From the NCBI GenBank assembly GCA_024697625.1, contig JAILFJ010000146.1, positions 45,074-109,073 on the forward strand: a stretch of DNA of 64,000 bases, written 5' to 3'. The stretch's first letter is position 1. Each line of letters opens with the position of its first letter. The notes below the pieces were generated by a model that was not told the origin of the DNA, made no database searches, and was given only the letters and a program-made list of their open reading frames with translations. This DNA is from Oscillospiraceae bacterium (GTDB lineage: Bacteria > Bacillota > Clostridia > Oscillospirales > Oscillospiraceae). Positions 4,190-34,302 of the stretch are shown here, one piece after another. Both the position numbers and the translations under genes were made by a program.

Positions 4190-5688
4190 TAAAATTGAAG
4201 CGGAAGGAAGTTTGCAGGCTTACATTGCTACTGGCTTCGGTATTCGCTGTTGTCTATGTGCTGACGCAAATGACCCCATTTGTTGCGGATGATTTCAATT
4301 ACGCCTTCAAGTGGGGGGGAGGCGGCCGCGTAAGGAACTTCTGGGAGATGTTTTTTTCCATGGGGATGCATCGTTTTGCGACGAACGGACGGGTCTTTGC
4401 CCACGGCTGGGTGACTCTGTTTATGATGTGGCCGAGATGGGTATTCCCTGTTGTAAATGCTGCCGTCATCATGCTCTTTTCGTGGGGCACGTACAGAATC
4501 TGCAGGATGTGGGATGTCCCCTGCCCGGATTGCTTTGTGCTAACGGTCTTGTTTTTGCTGTGGATCTGTATGCCTGCATTTGGACAGGTTTTCCTTTGGC
4601 TGGACGGTGCTGTCAACTATTTCTGGGGCGCAGCACTGTCATGGACCGTTATATGTGGTACTCTGTACAAATCGAAAAGAAAAGGAATTGCAGCATTGGT
4701 AACTCTGTTGCTGCTGCCACTGAGTTTCGTTGCGGGAGCCTGGTCGGAGCATATCTCGTTTTCTATGCTTGTCATACTTCTGATGCTGGCGGTTTACGGA
4801 TGGGTGTCGGACCGAAGCTTTCCGTTCAGGCAGAGTCTTATGATCCTGTTCGGCGGCTTAGGCTATCTCTATCTGATGTCAGCGCCTTCTATGCTTCCTA
4901 AACAGCTTGCATCGATGGGATTGCCGAAGCCGAAAGGAATGCTTGAGACAGTCCGGGCTGTATTGGGTTATTTCTGGTGGGCTTTACTTGCTGCTGTGCT
5001 TGCACTGCTTGCCGGCGCTCTTCTTATTCGCTTACTTTACAGAAAAAAGCTGCTGAGGAAGACGTTGAATGTACTTGCACGTTGCGGCATTGTCGTTGGT
5101 ATCTGTGCAGTACTGCTCTTTGCCGTTACATCGGCTCGAGATGATGGTTTATACTCCATGGTTTCATCTACCGGGTTGGGGCTGGGAATCCTTATTACAG
5201 TCTTTTCATTTGGATTGATATGTGCCCTGAGGAGTCAGATCGAGCGAGAGCAGCTTGCTTTTTCAATCATCCTGTTTCTTGGGGGCATATCGGCAGTTCT
5301 GCCCTTCAGCGTTGCGGCTTACCGGCCTGCCCGGGGCCTGTGTGCTCCGGTGGTTTTCGGGGCGATCGCGACAGTTATTCTCATGAACAGCAGCAGTATA
5401 GAGAGAAGGAAGCCTCTCATGGGGACGTTGCTCGGTGTTTTTCTTTTTACCTTTGTGATTGGTACTGCAGATATCGTCAATGTTCATCACGCTGCGGATA
5501 TCAGAGAGGAAGAGATCGCGGAGGTCCTCTGTACAGACGGTATCCTTCGGACTGCACCATACCCCTGCCGGACAAAGTATAGCGCTCAGTTTGGACTGGA
5601 AGATCTGCAACCGGACAGCCTGTGGCCGAACGACATTGAAAAGGAATACTACGGACTGCAGGGGATCATTGTAGATACTGAAGAATAA
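4186..5688 (+). CDS. DUF6056-like / GT-C-type multi-TM membrane protein
   Basis: PFVADDFNYAFKWGG first-loop acidic motif, about 12 TM; GTG start overlaps upstream stop. Confidence 0.65.
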   Translation: MIKLKRKEVCRLTLLLASVFAVVYVLTQMTPFVADDFNYAFKWGGGGRVRNFWEMFFSMGMHRFATNGRVFAHGWVTLFMMWPRWVFPVVNAAVIMLFSWGTYRICRMWDVPCPDCFVLTVLFLLWICMPAFGQVFLWLDGAVNYFWGAALSWTVICGTLYKSKRKGIAALVTLLLLPLSFVAGAWSEHISFSMLVILLMLAVYGWVSDRSFPFRQSLMILFGGLGYLYLMSAPSMLPKQLASMGLPKPKGMLETVRAVLGYFWWALLAAVLALLAGALLIRLLYRKKLLRKTLNVLARCGIVVGICAVLLFAVTSARDDGLYSMVSSTGLGLGILITVFSFGLICALRSQIEREQLAFSIILFLGGISAVLPFSVAAYRPARGLCAPVVFGAIATVILMNSSSIERRKPLMGTLLGVFLFTFVIGTADIVNVHHAADIREEEIAEVLCTDGILRTAPYPCRTKYSAQFGLEDLQPDSLWPNDIEKEYYGLQGIIVDTEE

Positions 5689-5981
5689 AAAAATACCGAA
5701 ATGCTGAAACAATGCATCTGTTGAAGATTAAACAAGGCATGACTGATACGTGAGCCTTGTGCGCTTAACAGGAATACAACCGATCATGTGCCACAGAGTC
5801 CGGACAGCCGGGGCGCCCTTCGCGTTTTCCTACTTGATTTTTTATGGGATGTATGCTAAAAGAGTACAATATATCCTTAATTCGGGGCGTTATTATGGTG
5901 TTGTAATGGGGCAGGGTCAGGGGATGTTTCAGTTTGGAGAAGACAATGCTGGTTGACCGCGCGATAAGCTTTTGAAAAACA

Positions 5982-29920: not shown

Positions 29921-30226
29921 ATGGTGAATATGGAAATCAAAAAAACTGCCGAAGGGACCCGCCTTACCGTCGCTCTGGAAGGCCGGCTGGATACACTCTC
30001 GTCCCGGGATCTGGAAAAGGAACTGCGCGCCACGGTGCCCGGACTGACAGAACTGGTGTTCGATTTTGAAAAACTGACTTTTATCACCTCTGCGGGGCTT
30101 CGTGTCATTTCCTTGGCCAAAAAACTGATGAACAAACAGGGGCACATGGTCATCCGCAATACGCAGTCGGATGTCATGGAGGTCTTTGACGCGACAGGGC
30201 TTTCGGCTTTTCTGGAGTTCGAGTAA
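29921..30226 (+). CDS. STAS-domain anti-sigma-factor antagonist
   Basis: MEIKKTAEGTRLTVALEGRLDTLSSRDLEKEL..LVFDFEKLTFITSAGLRVISLAKK; start 29921 or 29930. Confidence 0.92.
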   Translation: MVNMEIKKTAEGTRLTVALEGRLDTLSSRDLEKELRATVPGLTELVFDFEKLTFITSAGLRVISLAKKLMNKQGHMVIRNTQSDVMEVFDATGLSAFLEFE

Positions 30227-30250: not shown

Positions 30251-32572
30251 ATGAAACCGAATGAACCGAAAGACATGCCCCGCAGGACGACCATCTCGCA
30301 CACATTCCTCCTTTGGCTGCTGCTGATTGTGACTGCAGCCTTCCTGGTATCAATGGTATTTACCTGGACCCATCAGACGGCGATGTCCAGGAACAATGCG
30401 GAGATGCTTCTGCGGACCAACGTCAGTGATGTGAGGCAGGATGTCATCGATGCGTCGGACGAAAACCTTCTGGACCTGTGCAGGAGAATTGCCCGTGACT
30501 TCGATGAAGGCGCTGCGACAGACAGCTCCGCGCTGCTTGAGATGATGGACGTTTTCGATGTGGCGGAGATCAATATCATCGATGAGAATGGAATCATCAC
30601 CTCGACAACCTTTCCGGACTTTCTGGGCTATTACATGGGAGACGGCGAGCAGTCTGCGGAGTTTCTCTGTCTGTTGGACGGGTCGGAGACCGAGTATGTC
30701 CAGAGCTATCAGCCGACTTCGCACAACGCTTCTCTCCTGAGAAAATATGCCGGGACCGTCCTGAAGAACGGCGGTTTTGTCCAGGTGGGATATGACGGAA
30801 GCCGCTTCCGGAGGGACATCGACAGGTATGTGATCAACGCCGCAAAGAACCGCCATGTCGGACAGAGCGGCTGCGTGATCATCGCCAATGAGGAATGGAA
30901 CATCGTCAGCGATCTTTACGGAAACGAGGGAGAGAACCTGTATGCCACCGGCATCTGGATCAACCGGGACACCATGCCGGAGAACGAAGTGTTCCGTGCG
31001 CAGGTCTACGGCCAGCCGTGCTCCTGCGTCTATATCTTTTCCGAAGGATACTATATTGTGACTGTCCTTCCGGAGAACGAGATCATCCTTCAGCGGGAGA
31101 CCTCCGTCAGAACCGTCGGCATGGTTGAAATTCTTCTGTTCCTGGTGCTTTTCTGTGTGATCTTTACTCTGGTCAGGAGGCTGGTGGTCGACAATCTGGA
31201 GAAGGTCAACCATTCTCTGGCGAAGATCACGGACGGAGACCTGGACGAAGTGGTGGACGTGCGCTCCAATGCGGAGTTCTCTGACCTCTCGGACGACATC
31301 AATTCCACGGTCAGCACGCTGAAACAGTATATCGCGGCTGCGGCCTCCCGGATCGATGAAGAACTGGCTCTCGCAAAGAACATCCAGCTGTCCGCACTGC
31401 CCTCCGTTTTCCCGCCCTATCCGGACCAGACTGCGTTTTCTGTTTTTGCCGCGATGGATACGGCAAAGGAGGTCGGCGGGGACTTTTATGATTTCTATCT
31501 CCTGGATGAAAACCGGCTGGCTTTCCTGATTGCGGACGTCTCGGGCAAGGGCATCCCTGCGGCCATGTTCATGATGACCGCCAAGACCGTCCTGAGGGAC
31601 TATGCCGAGCGCGGCGATCCGCCGGAGGAGATCTTTGACAACGCAAACGGCAAGCTCTGTGAGGGGAACGAGTCGGAGATGTTTCTGACAGCCTGGATGG
31701 GCTTTCTCGAAACGGAAACCGGACTGGTCCGTTACATCAACGCGGGTCACAGCCGGCCTGTCCTGATCCGGAACGGCACGGCATCCTTCGTCGAGCAGAA
31801 GGTCAATCTGATGCTGGCAATGATGGAGGACTTCCCCTATGCGGAGCAGACTCTTCAGCTGCTGCCCGGAGATATTCTCTACCTCTATACGGACGGCGTG
31901 ACGGAGGCGTCAAAAGCGGACGAGAGCAGATTCGGAAATGACAGACTTCTGAGCATCCTCTCGGATGATTTCGGAACCGGAGAAGCCGCCTGCCGGAGCA
32001 TCTGCCGTGCCGTGCGAGAGAGCATTGATGCATTTGCGGAGGGAGAGCCGCAGTTCGATGATATCACCCAGGTGTGCCTGTATTATGCAGGGCAGGCCCC
32101 GGGGAAAGCCTGCCTGCCCGAAGAGGACAGCGGGAAGGCCCACCGTCTGACGGGAGAGCTGACCGTGGCGGCGGAAGAGGCCGGTCTCTCTCCGGTGCTC
32201 GACATGATCGACGGACTTCTGGAGGAAGCCTCCTGCGCATCGAAGGCAAGGGAGCAGATCGAGATGGCGGTGGAAGAGATCTTCGTCAACATCGCAGATT
32301 ATGCCTATCCGGAAGGGCTTGGGGAATGCACCGTTCTTGCGGACATCGACAGAGACTTGAAGACAGCCGAAATCACCGTCATCGACACGGGGAAACCCTA
32401 TGACCCCCTGGCAAAGCCGGATCCGGACCTGAACATGGACCTTGAACAGCGGGAGTTTGGCGGCTTTGGAATCTTTATGGTCAAGGAAGCGATGGATACC
32501 GTGGAATACAGGCGGGAAGAGGGGAAGAATATTCTGACCATCCGGAAAAGCTGGATGCAGACGGAAGTGTGA
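30251..32572 (+). CDS. Membrane sensor with HAMP, SpoIIE/RsbU-type PP2C phosphatase and C-terminal RsbW-like ATPase domain
   Basis: TM, ~250-aa extracytoplasmic region, TM, HAMP; PP2C motifs AKEVGGDFYDFY, FLIADVSGKGIPAAMFM, LYLYTDGVTEA, FDDITQVCL; ATPase boxes EEIFVNIADYAY, VIDTGKPYDP, REFGGFGIFMVK. Confidence 0.92.
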   Translation: MKPNEPKDMPRRTTISHTFLLWLLLIVTAAFLVSMVFTWTHQTAMSRNNAEMLLRTNVSDVRQDVIDASDENLLDLCRRIARDFDEGAATDSSALLEMMDVFDVAEINIIDENGIITSTTFPDFLGYYMGDGEQSAEFLCLLDGSETEYVQSYQPTSHNASLLRKYAGTVLKNGGFVQVGYDGSRFRRDIDRYVINAAKNRHVGQSGCVIIANEEWNIVSDLYGNEGENLYATGIWINRDTMPENEVFRAQVYGQPCSCVYIFSEGYYIVTVLPENEIILQRETSVRTVGMVEILLFLVLFCVIFTLVRRLVVDNLEKVNHSLAKITDGDLDEVVDVRSNAEFSDLSDDINSTVSTLKQYIAAAASRIDEELALAKNIQLSALPSVFPPYPDQTAFSVFAAMDTAKEVGGDFYDFYLLDENRLAFLIADVSGKGIPAAMFMMTAKTVLRDYAERGDPPEEIFDNANGKLCEGNESEMFLTAWMGFLETETGLVRYINAGHSRPVLIRNGTASFVEQKVNLMLAMMEDFPYAEQTLQLLPGDILYLYTDGVTEASKADESRFGNDRLLSILSDDFGTGEAACRSICRAVRESIDAFAEGEPQFDDITQVCLYYAGQAPGKACLPEEDSGKAHRLTGELTVAAEEAGLSPVLDMIDGLLEEASCASKAREQIEMAVEEIFVNIADYAYPEGLGECTVLADIDRDLKTAEITVIDTGKPYDPLAKPDPDLNMDLEQREFGGFGIFMVKEAMDTVEYRREEGKNILTIRKSWMQTEV

Positions 32573-34302
32573 ACAAGATGTCCTTCATGTCAAAGAAGTA
32601 TTATTCCATGCTGCTCAGCGGAACACTGAGTACGATTGTCGTTACCGTTCTGCTGATGTCCGATTCGATCATAGCCGGCTCGGTCATCGGTGAAACGGCT
32701 GTGGCAGGGATCACGCTTGTCTCGCCCCTGTATTCACTGGCGGTTTTTTTCAGTTCTGTTTTCTCCCTGGGCATTCCGATTGCCTATTCCGAAGAGATGG
32801 GAAAGTTCAGGCAGAAAGAGGCTGACAGGGTATTTGGTTTCGGCTTTCTGATGTCATTGGCGACAGGCGTGTTTCTCCTGCTCTCGATCCTTCTGTTCGG
32901 AGAAATCTATCTGAAGAGCAGCCACCAGCTTCCGACCGTCGTGGAGGAAGCCCGGAGATATCTCTCCTTTATGCGGTTTACGATGCTCTGCCTGCCTTTG
33001 AATAATCTTCTGTCGAGTGCGGTTTATTCCGACGGAGATGACACGATCCCCATGGTATCCAGTCTGGTTCAGTGTGTCGGCAATCTGACAGCCTCCTTCC
33101 TTCTCAGCCGGACGATGGGGATTCGGGGGATCAGCCTCGCGTCGTTTGTGTTTACATTGATTGCGACAGCAATTCTCTTTCTGCACTTTCTGAAGAAGAA
33201 CAATTCTCTGAGACTCAACCTGTATTTCTCCTTCCCGCTTATGAAGAAGGTCGTCCGTTACAGCTTTATTGATGCAAGCGTCTACCTGTTTTCAGCTGCG
33301 TTCACGACCGTTCTGAACACTTTTGTCACCCTGTATTTCGGTGGAGAATACCTGGTTCTGGTGTCCGTTGTCCTGCTTTGCAGCGAGTTCCAGATGCTGT
33401 ATGACGGGATCGGAGAGGCGATTACGCCCATACTCAGCGTTTATCTGGGTGAGGACTGCTTCCCGGGAATCAGGAAGATTTACAGACTGGCGGAGAAGAC
33501 CTCCGTTGCTGAGGGAATCTTCGTTTTTGCGGTGCTGTTTTTTGCCGCTCCCCATATTCCCGGTCTGCTGGGCATTTCCGACCCGGAGATGGTTCGGATT
33601 GCGGCTGCGGGGGTACGCTTCATTTCGGTCAGCGGCCCGTTTGTGAGTCTGCTCTCTCTGACTGCAGCCTATGCCCTCGTGGTCGACAGAATTTTGCTCG
33701 GGATGGCGACCATCGGACTGCGGGATTTTCTGCTCCCCGGGCTCTTCTCCGTGCTGTTCGGAATGCTCTTCGGACTGAAAGGCTTCTTTTTCGGCGTGAT
33801 GTTCGGCCTGGTACTGGCCTGGGTCGGGATGATGGTTTTCATGCGTCTGAGATATGGGGACGACGCCCCGCTGCTGCTCAGGAAGCTTGAAGAAAACAGG
33901 GAGACGCTGCTCTACGATCTGACGGTTGAACCGTATTCGGTTCGGCGCATCCGGGACGAAATCGGGGAGGCGCTGAAGTCGCGCTCCTATGACCATTCGA
34001 CGGTGTTCCGGGTAGAGCTCCTTTTCGAAGAACTCTTTATGCTGATCAATGAGAAGAATGGAGACCGTGTCATACAGGGGGAGTGCACGCTGCTCCTTGG
34101 GGACAGTGCAATACGGATGATCACCAGAGATACGGGGATCATATTCGATCCGACGGATGATGACATGGCGATTACCAATATCGGCAGTCATGTCCTTCTC
34201 AGCGTTGCGGAGAGGATCTCTGATCAGAAACGTTATCTCATGACAATGAGCTTCAACCGCACCTCGTTCGAGATTAAGGCCCGGAAGGAGATCCCGGCGT
34301 AG
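32569..34302 (+). CDS. MATE-family transporter fused to a C-terminal RsbW-like (HATPase) domain
   Basis: About 12 TM MOP/MATE protein (LLSGTLSTIVVTVLLMSDSIIAGSVIGETAVAGITLVSP), then VEPYSVRRIRDEIGEALKS..VELLFEELFMLINEKNG..IRMITRDTGIIFDPTDDD; GTGA overlap with upstream stop. Confidence 0.85.
   Translation: MNKMSFMSKKYYSMLLSGTLSTIVVTVLLMSDSIIAGSVIGETAVAGITLVSPLYSLAVFFSSVFSLGIPIAYSEEMGKFRQKEADRVFGFGFLMSLATGVFLLLSILLFGEIYLKSSHQLPTVVEEARRYLSFMRFTMLCLPLNNLLSSAVYSDGDDTIPMVSSLVQCVGNLTASFLLSRTMGIRGISLASFVFTLIATAILFLHFLKKNNSLRLNLYFSFPLMKKVVRYSFIDASVYLFSAAFTTVLNTFVTLYFGGEYLVLVSVVLLCSEFQMLYDGIGEAITPILSVYLGEDCFPGIRKIYRLAEKTSVAEGIFVFAVLFFAAPHIPGLLGISDPEMVRIAAAGVRFISVSGPFVSLLSLTAAYALVVDRILLGMATIGLRDFLLPGLFSVLFGMLFGLKGFFFGVMFGLVLAWVGMMVFMRLRYGDDAPLLLRKLEENRETLLYDLTVEPYSVRRIRDEIGEALKSRSYDHSTVFRVELLFEELFMLINEKNGDRVIQGECTLLLGDSAIRMITRDTGIIFDPTDDDMAITNIGSHVLLSVAERISDQKRYLMTMSFNRTSFEIKARKEIPA

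Follow-up and report, generated by a model that had tools for sequence, protein, structure and literature searches.

The stretch of DNA analysed here, called the window in what follows, comprises 64,000 nucleotides from the genome of an Oscillospiraceae bacterium, and on its forward (+) strand three adjoining genes are found. The first of these (29930..30226) encodes a STAS-domain protein of the anti-anti-sigma type of 98 aa (Pfam STAS 9e-11, TIGR00377 7.6e-15). Its reading frame is open from 29804, and the start at 29930 is deduced from the orthologues of 98-127 aa that occupy the same place in three related loci (L001, L002 and L006). The protein carries a phosphosite-like serine in the motif FITSAGL, a residue that is retained across the STAS proteins listed. 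The second gene (30251..32572) encodes a membrane sensor with a HAMP region, a SpoIIE/PP2C phosphatase domain (31505-32080; Pfam SpoIIE 7.2e-50) and an RsbW-like kinase domain (32168-32548; HATPase_c_2 2.8e-23) in which N-box, D-box and lid are all intact. Its stop codon is overlapped by the GTG start of the third gene in a GTGA junction, an ATG at 32578 being an alternative start. This third gene (32569..34302) is an uninterrupted open reading frame of 577 aa, consisting of a MATE core (32581..33864, residues 5-432) and a separate C-terminal domain of about 130 residues that resembles a degenerate RsbW/SpoIIAB (33901..34278, residues 445-570); the initial annotation had placed both the reading frame and the fused domain correctly. 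The components of a partner switch are encoded together here: a STAS protein with a serine that by its motif is phosphorylatable, a PP2C phosphatase and a kinase domain. The order STAS, PP2C-kinase, MATE-tail is kept in L001, L002 and L006.

The transporter part is recognized by Pfam (MatE, E 6.1e-20), and the AlphaFold model of the full-length protein (pLDDT 88) agrees with experimentally determined MATE structures, among them PfMATE and DinF. MATE transporters use an aspartate in the first transmembrane helix (TM1) for ion coupling. This residue is kept as Asp32 (LMSDSIIAG, 32662-32664) and is invariant among 19 orthologues. On the basis of sequence and model, the MATE part is a putative transporter of the drug-efflux type. 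It shares the core fold and the TM1 aspartate with the MATE multidrug transporters PfMATE, DinF and NorM, from which the window protein differs by its additional RsbW-like domain.

Single-sequence searches of Pfam and NCBIfam were too weak to classify this tail, which reaches HATPase_c_2 with an E-value of 0.2 and 12.1 bits, below the gathering score of 27.4; they were therefore replaced by profile and fold searches. HATPase_c_2 is matched in a Pfam search by 10 of the 19 orthologous tails (best E 1.9e-5), and the best PDB sequence match of a profile of the 19 tails is RsbW of B. subtilis (6m36, E 0.023). SpoIIAB appears in the same profile search with E-values of 0.25-0.29, ranked after a chance-level match to an unrelated kinase. 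The AlphaFold model of the tail domain (pLDDT 83.4, pTM 0.79) was compared with the PDB by Foldseek, and the first 13 matches are all anti-sigma kinases of the RsbW/SpoIIAB/UsfX type (E from 7.7e-7, TM about 0.55-0.8). The model, the fold matches and the family profile all bear out the RsbW-like fold that had been assigned by eye, and the tail, as modelled, has the Bergerat-type fold of SpoIIAB/RsbW. A Pfam match to LIP1 (E 0.0045) and PDB matches to myosin heavy chain kinase (E 0.09-0.3) each cover only part of the domain, find no support in the fold search and were dismissed as chance.

In kinases of this type the Asp-x-Gly of the D-box contacts adenine, while the N-box Asn binds Mg2+. For a comparison of these motifs, 90 HATPase domains of the collected loci were brought into one profile alignment. 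The N-box EEIFVNIADYAY of the PP2C protein's kinase domain aligns with EELFMLINEKNG of the MATE tail, in which the stretch EELFMLINEKN (34027..34059) has Leu492 (34042-34044) at the Mg2+-Asn position. The D-box IDTGKPYDP of the intact domain aligns with RDTGIIFDP of the tail (TRDTGIIFDP, 34123..34152), and the lid FGGFGIFMVK with TNIGSHVLLS, within a former ATP lid AITNIGSHVLLSVAE (34168..34212) from which the glycine-rich motif is absent. All three comparisons made by eye in the initial annotation, namely an Asn replaced by Leu, an aligned D-box and a lost glycine lid, were reproduced in this way. An intact Asn or glycine lid, by which the annotation would have been contradicted, does not occur elsewhere in the tail domain. 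Nor is a glycine motif present in the lid of the relatives, and even close relatives (SLRAY, SLRSY) do not share the one glycine that the former lid of the window protein still has (NIGSH). On the other hand, Glu488 is kept at the catalytic, general-base position, and Glu487, Glu505, Asp521, Gly523, Leu557 and Asn563 are invariant over the 19 tails. The last two lie in the C-terminal strands YLMTMSFNRTSFEIK (34234..34278), where Asn563 aligns with GKNILTIRK of the intact domains. From the distribution of the invariant positions, the frame of the fold and the D-box are conserved and the phosphate-binding side is not. The description of the domain as catalytically degenerate therefore stands for the Mg2+ Asn and the lid but not for Glu488 and Asp521-x-Gly523, and the site has degenerated only in part. 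With Glu488 and the D-box aspartate in place, the tail may still bind a nucleotide.

A search of relatives with the tail profile yielded numerous MATE proteins, about 600 residues in length, that carry a tail of this kind. Since the queries were of the Asn-less type, the counts of Asn-less and Asn-intact members given here are not frequencies. A tree was built for 66 fusions from Clostridia and relatives; as it is based on the MATE part alone, the columns of the kinase motifs do not enter it. A first tree with plain MATE proteins as outgroup was replaced by one without them, because these long branches fell inside the family. Two further long branches (L103 and L126) and one incomplete member (L123) were left out of this final, unrooted tree. 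It separates a clade of 34 Asn-intact fusions (support 100/99) from 32 others, 31 of which lack the Asn; L036 is the single Asn-bearing member among these, and two changes suffice to explain the state of the Asn on the whole tree. The Asn-less members span several genera, and two of them (L037 and L038) lie outside the class of the window. The absence of the Asn, judged from this tree, is thus an old, clade-wide feature and not the private decay of one gene. What had been described as a feature of one protein is indeed present there, but about half of the MATE-HATPase fusions in the collection share it. Although the root is unset, the Asn was probably lost rather than gained, because intact RsbW and PP2C-kinase domains carry it. 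The residue that replaces it varies (Leu, Thr, Phe, Ala, Ser or His), which fits a dropped function. Many of the fusions have an intact site, with the N-box EEMAGNIVEHGF and the lid KNIGIRMV. The window's genome encodes a second Asn-less MATE-tail protein (G000:C24:49546-51231; L008, L030), which is 34% identical to the first and has no STAS or PP2C neighbours.

The tail domain is under purifying selection. Within the window group, the tail domain has a dN/dS of 0.085-0.19 and the MATE part one of 0.18-0.28. When the window is compared with L001, L006 and L002, which are closest to it, the tail gives 0.085-0.15 and the transporter 0.18-0.22. The pair L003-L004 was not used, its synonymous sites being saturated. 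A frameshift or pseudogene was ruled out by the low dN/dS and the open frames of the relatives, one of which (L134) has a single internal stop. The ratio of tail to MATE divergence is 0.62 (95% 0.47-0.77) for the four STAS-PP2C-MATE loci that include the window, and 1.24 (1.00-1.52) for four sister loci without STAS and PP2C-kinase genes. Based on few loci, this pattern fits a tail on which a protein partner from an adjacent gene imposes constraint. Among the other groups the ratio is 0.77 for MATE-PP2C-STAS, 1.04 for MATE-PP2C and 1.21 for STAS-Condensation loci. The last two values do not fit a constraint that always tracks STAS or PP2C neighbours, and this generalization was rejected.

For 14 of the 33 Asn-less fusions, a STAS or PP2C gene is found on their own strand at a distance of no more than 1 kb; these fusions belong to about six lineages, namely the window type, L035, L037/L038, L079/L086, L081/L093/L100/L110 and L141. 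The same applies to 8 of the 36 Asn-bearing fusions, including L036. In the genome of the window, family searches gave a background density of about 2.2% of the sequence within 3 kb of a STAS or SpoIIE domain, which the association greatly exceeds. This also holds when lineages are counted (6 of about 12 with neighbours); the corresponding P of about 1e-7 is approximate because the lineages were told apart manually. The majority of the Asn-less fusions lack such a gene in their vicinity, so that their partners may be encoded elsewhere or the domain may have another role. The genomes are largely metagenome-assembled and contig ends cut several of the loci; an absent neighbour is therefore not always a real absence.

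Taken together, the fold comparison, the conservation throughout a deep clade and the low dN/dS all support the loss of Asn and lid from a retained fold, as the initial annotation had proposed, and the tail is well supported as a predicted pseudokinase. The docking function and the role of a regulatory receptor, which had been proposed along with it, are plausible on circumstantial evidence, namely the adjoining STAS and PP2C-kinase genes and the stronger constraint where these are present. On balance, we consider it probable that the tail is a kinase-dead docking, or receptor, module of the RsbW type on the MATE transporter and constitutes the output of a partner-switching operon. In such a system, the PP2C-HATPase membrane protein would phosphorylate the STAS protein at the serine of FITSAGL by means of its intact kinase domain, and would also dephosphorylate it by means of its SpoIIE domain, according to the state of the sensor region. 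The STAS protein in one of its phosphorylation states, presumably the unphosphorylated one by analogy with SpoIIAA and RsbV, would then dock on the MATE tail and might change or gate transport. The tail is the obvious candidate target because it has a STAS-binding fold, apparently without the means to phosphorylate. Having lost the Mg2+ Asn and the lid, and with them presumably ATP turnover, it could read the state of the STAS protein without resetting it. It could further be imagined, with a chance somewhat short of even, that the STAS/PP2C switch acts directly on the transporter through this dedicated kinase-dead domain, with the two roles that RsbW unites, kinase and binding, divided between two proteins, and that in one fusion family transporter clades with an active kinase and with a pseudokinase have long existed side by side.

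The same anatomy and the same operon would be expected if signalling ran in the reverse direction. The MATE protein would then be a transceptor that senses a substrate and sets the switch: either the STAS protein or the PP2C-borne kinase domain would bind to its tail or dissociate from it, and the true output would lie elsewhere, for example in a sigma factor or a cyclase. One Asn-intact group without the TM1 aspartate suggests that some fusions are sensors rather than transporters. However, this aspartate is present in 32 of the 33 Asn-less fusions and the MATE fold of the window protein is complete, as in a working transporter, and we regard the reverse direction as unlikely here. Rather improbable is a role as a sensor of adenine nucleotides, in which the tail would bind ATP or ADP through the D-box aspartate, without Mg2+ or hydrolysis, and would gate the transporter by energy state. 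The invariance of Asp521-x-Gly523 and Glu487 in the 19 orthologues would be in line with this, but the conserved Asp and Gly may merely serve the fold, and with the phosphate-holding lid and the Mg2+ ligand gone the affinity should be low.

A kinase-dead reading has to reckon with the fact that some unusual kinases work with replaced metal ligands. The tail could accordingly be a divergent but active kinase that still phosphorylates STAS proteins, another residue having taken the place of the Asn; the general-base position is Glu or Asp throughout, and L036 shows a relative with Asn at the Mg2+ position. A new chemistry should settle on one replacement, but the residue is inconstant and the lid is lost in most members, and an active kinase seems very unlikely. 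Finally, the lack of STAS and PP2C neighbours at more than half of the loci might point to a vestige or a purely structural tail without any signalling role, which is hard to reconcile with a dN/dS of about 0.1 and with a tail that in the window group changes more slowly than the transporter. To this last explanation we give hardly any weight.

To our knowledge, most partner switches described so far control sigma factors, and a few control cyclases. With the SpoIIAB/RsbW kinases (HATPase_c_2; PDB 1th8, 1til, 6m36) the tail shares the fold, the N-box helix and the Asp-x-Gly of the D-box, and STAS and SpoIIE-type PP2C genes adjoin it as they do those kinases. Unlike them, it lacks the Mg2+ Asn and the ATP lid and is fused to a MATE transporter, and no sigma factor is found among the adjoining genes of the window operon. 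SulP/SLC26 transporters carry a C-terminal STAS domain, one half of a partner-switching pair; the MATE protein of the window is fused to the other, kinase-like half. Targets other than sigma factors are found in Pseudomonas, where HsbR, a protein with PP2C and kinase domains, phosphorylates and dephosphorylates the STAS-type protein HsbA, which then binds FlgM or the diguanylate cyclase HsbD (PMC6482189). The PP2C protein of the window likewise combines phosphatase and kinase domains with a STAS partner, but it has a membrane sensor where HsbR has a receiver domain, and its candidate target is a transporter tail, whereas no pseudokinase is involved in the HsbR-HsbA system with its targets FlgM and the diguanylate cyclase. 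No description of MATE-HATPase fusions was found in the open-access literature. If the preferred reading of a kinase-dead docking module is true, a pseudokinase borne by a transporter would allow the STAS switch to gate membrane export directly, at the post-translational level.

The closest comparison is offered by the Asn-intact MATE-HATPase fusions (for example L083, L085 and L105), which have the same architecture and in some cases also lie beside STAS or PP2C genes. With the N-box and lid intact and the D-box aspartate kept, they are predicted to be active kinases. The two sister clades, on the same transporter scaffold, would then provide a natural comparison for the role of a binding-only RsbW domain. 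A clade of Asn-intact fusions (L083, L085, L090, L105 and relatives) has lost the TM1 aspartate, mostly to Ser, and of the 16 fusions without an aligned aspartate at this position, 15 carry the kinase Asn, one of these 15 being truncated there. These members with a predicted active kinase may be sensors rather than transporters.

Several further gene arrangements occur around the fusions. Directly upstream of the Asn-intact MATE-HATPase gene in L105 (5024-6574) and L087 (7813-9405) is a gene for a protein combining STAS, an APH-type phosphotransferase and an intact HATPase_c_2 domain (Pfam on L105); proteins of this type, 517-531 aa long, are also encoded in L106, L120 and L131. In L036:8544-10145, L037:5252-6841 and L038:5102-6694, one gene joins STAS to a Condensation domain of the NRPS type (Pfam 7.8e-40 in L036, 5.9e-43 in L037), and in all three this gene overlaps the start of the MATE-tail gene. 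In L028:4537-7691, L140:631-3851 and L141:5938-9101 it is a plain MATE gene that overlaps this start, which suggests a pair of two MATE proteins; in L141 a STAS gene follows the pair. A gene for an FGGY-type carbohydrate kinase lies close to or beside the MATE-tail gene in L031:26-2251 and L032:8608-10200. Just upstream of the MATE-tail gene in L005, a sodium:dicarboxylate symporter (4263-5921; SDF 3.4e-54) has an N-terminal stretch that, searched alone against Pfam, has no match but matches the local HATPase profile in a degenerate form (ALEEVLLDYQEHF ... GTNSVTMKF), and this symporter may represent another type of transporter that carries a dead RsbW domain.
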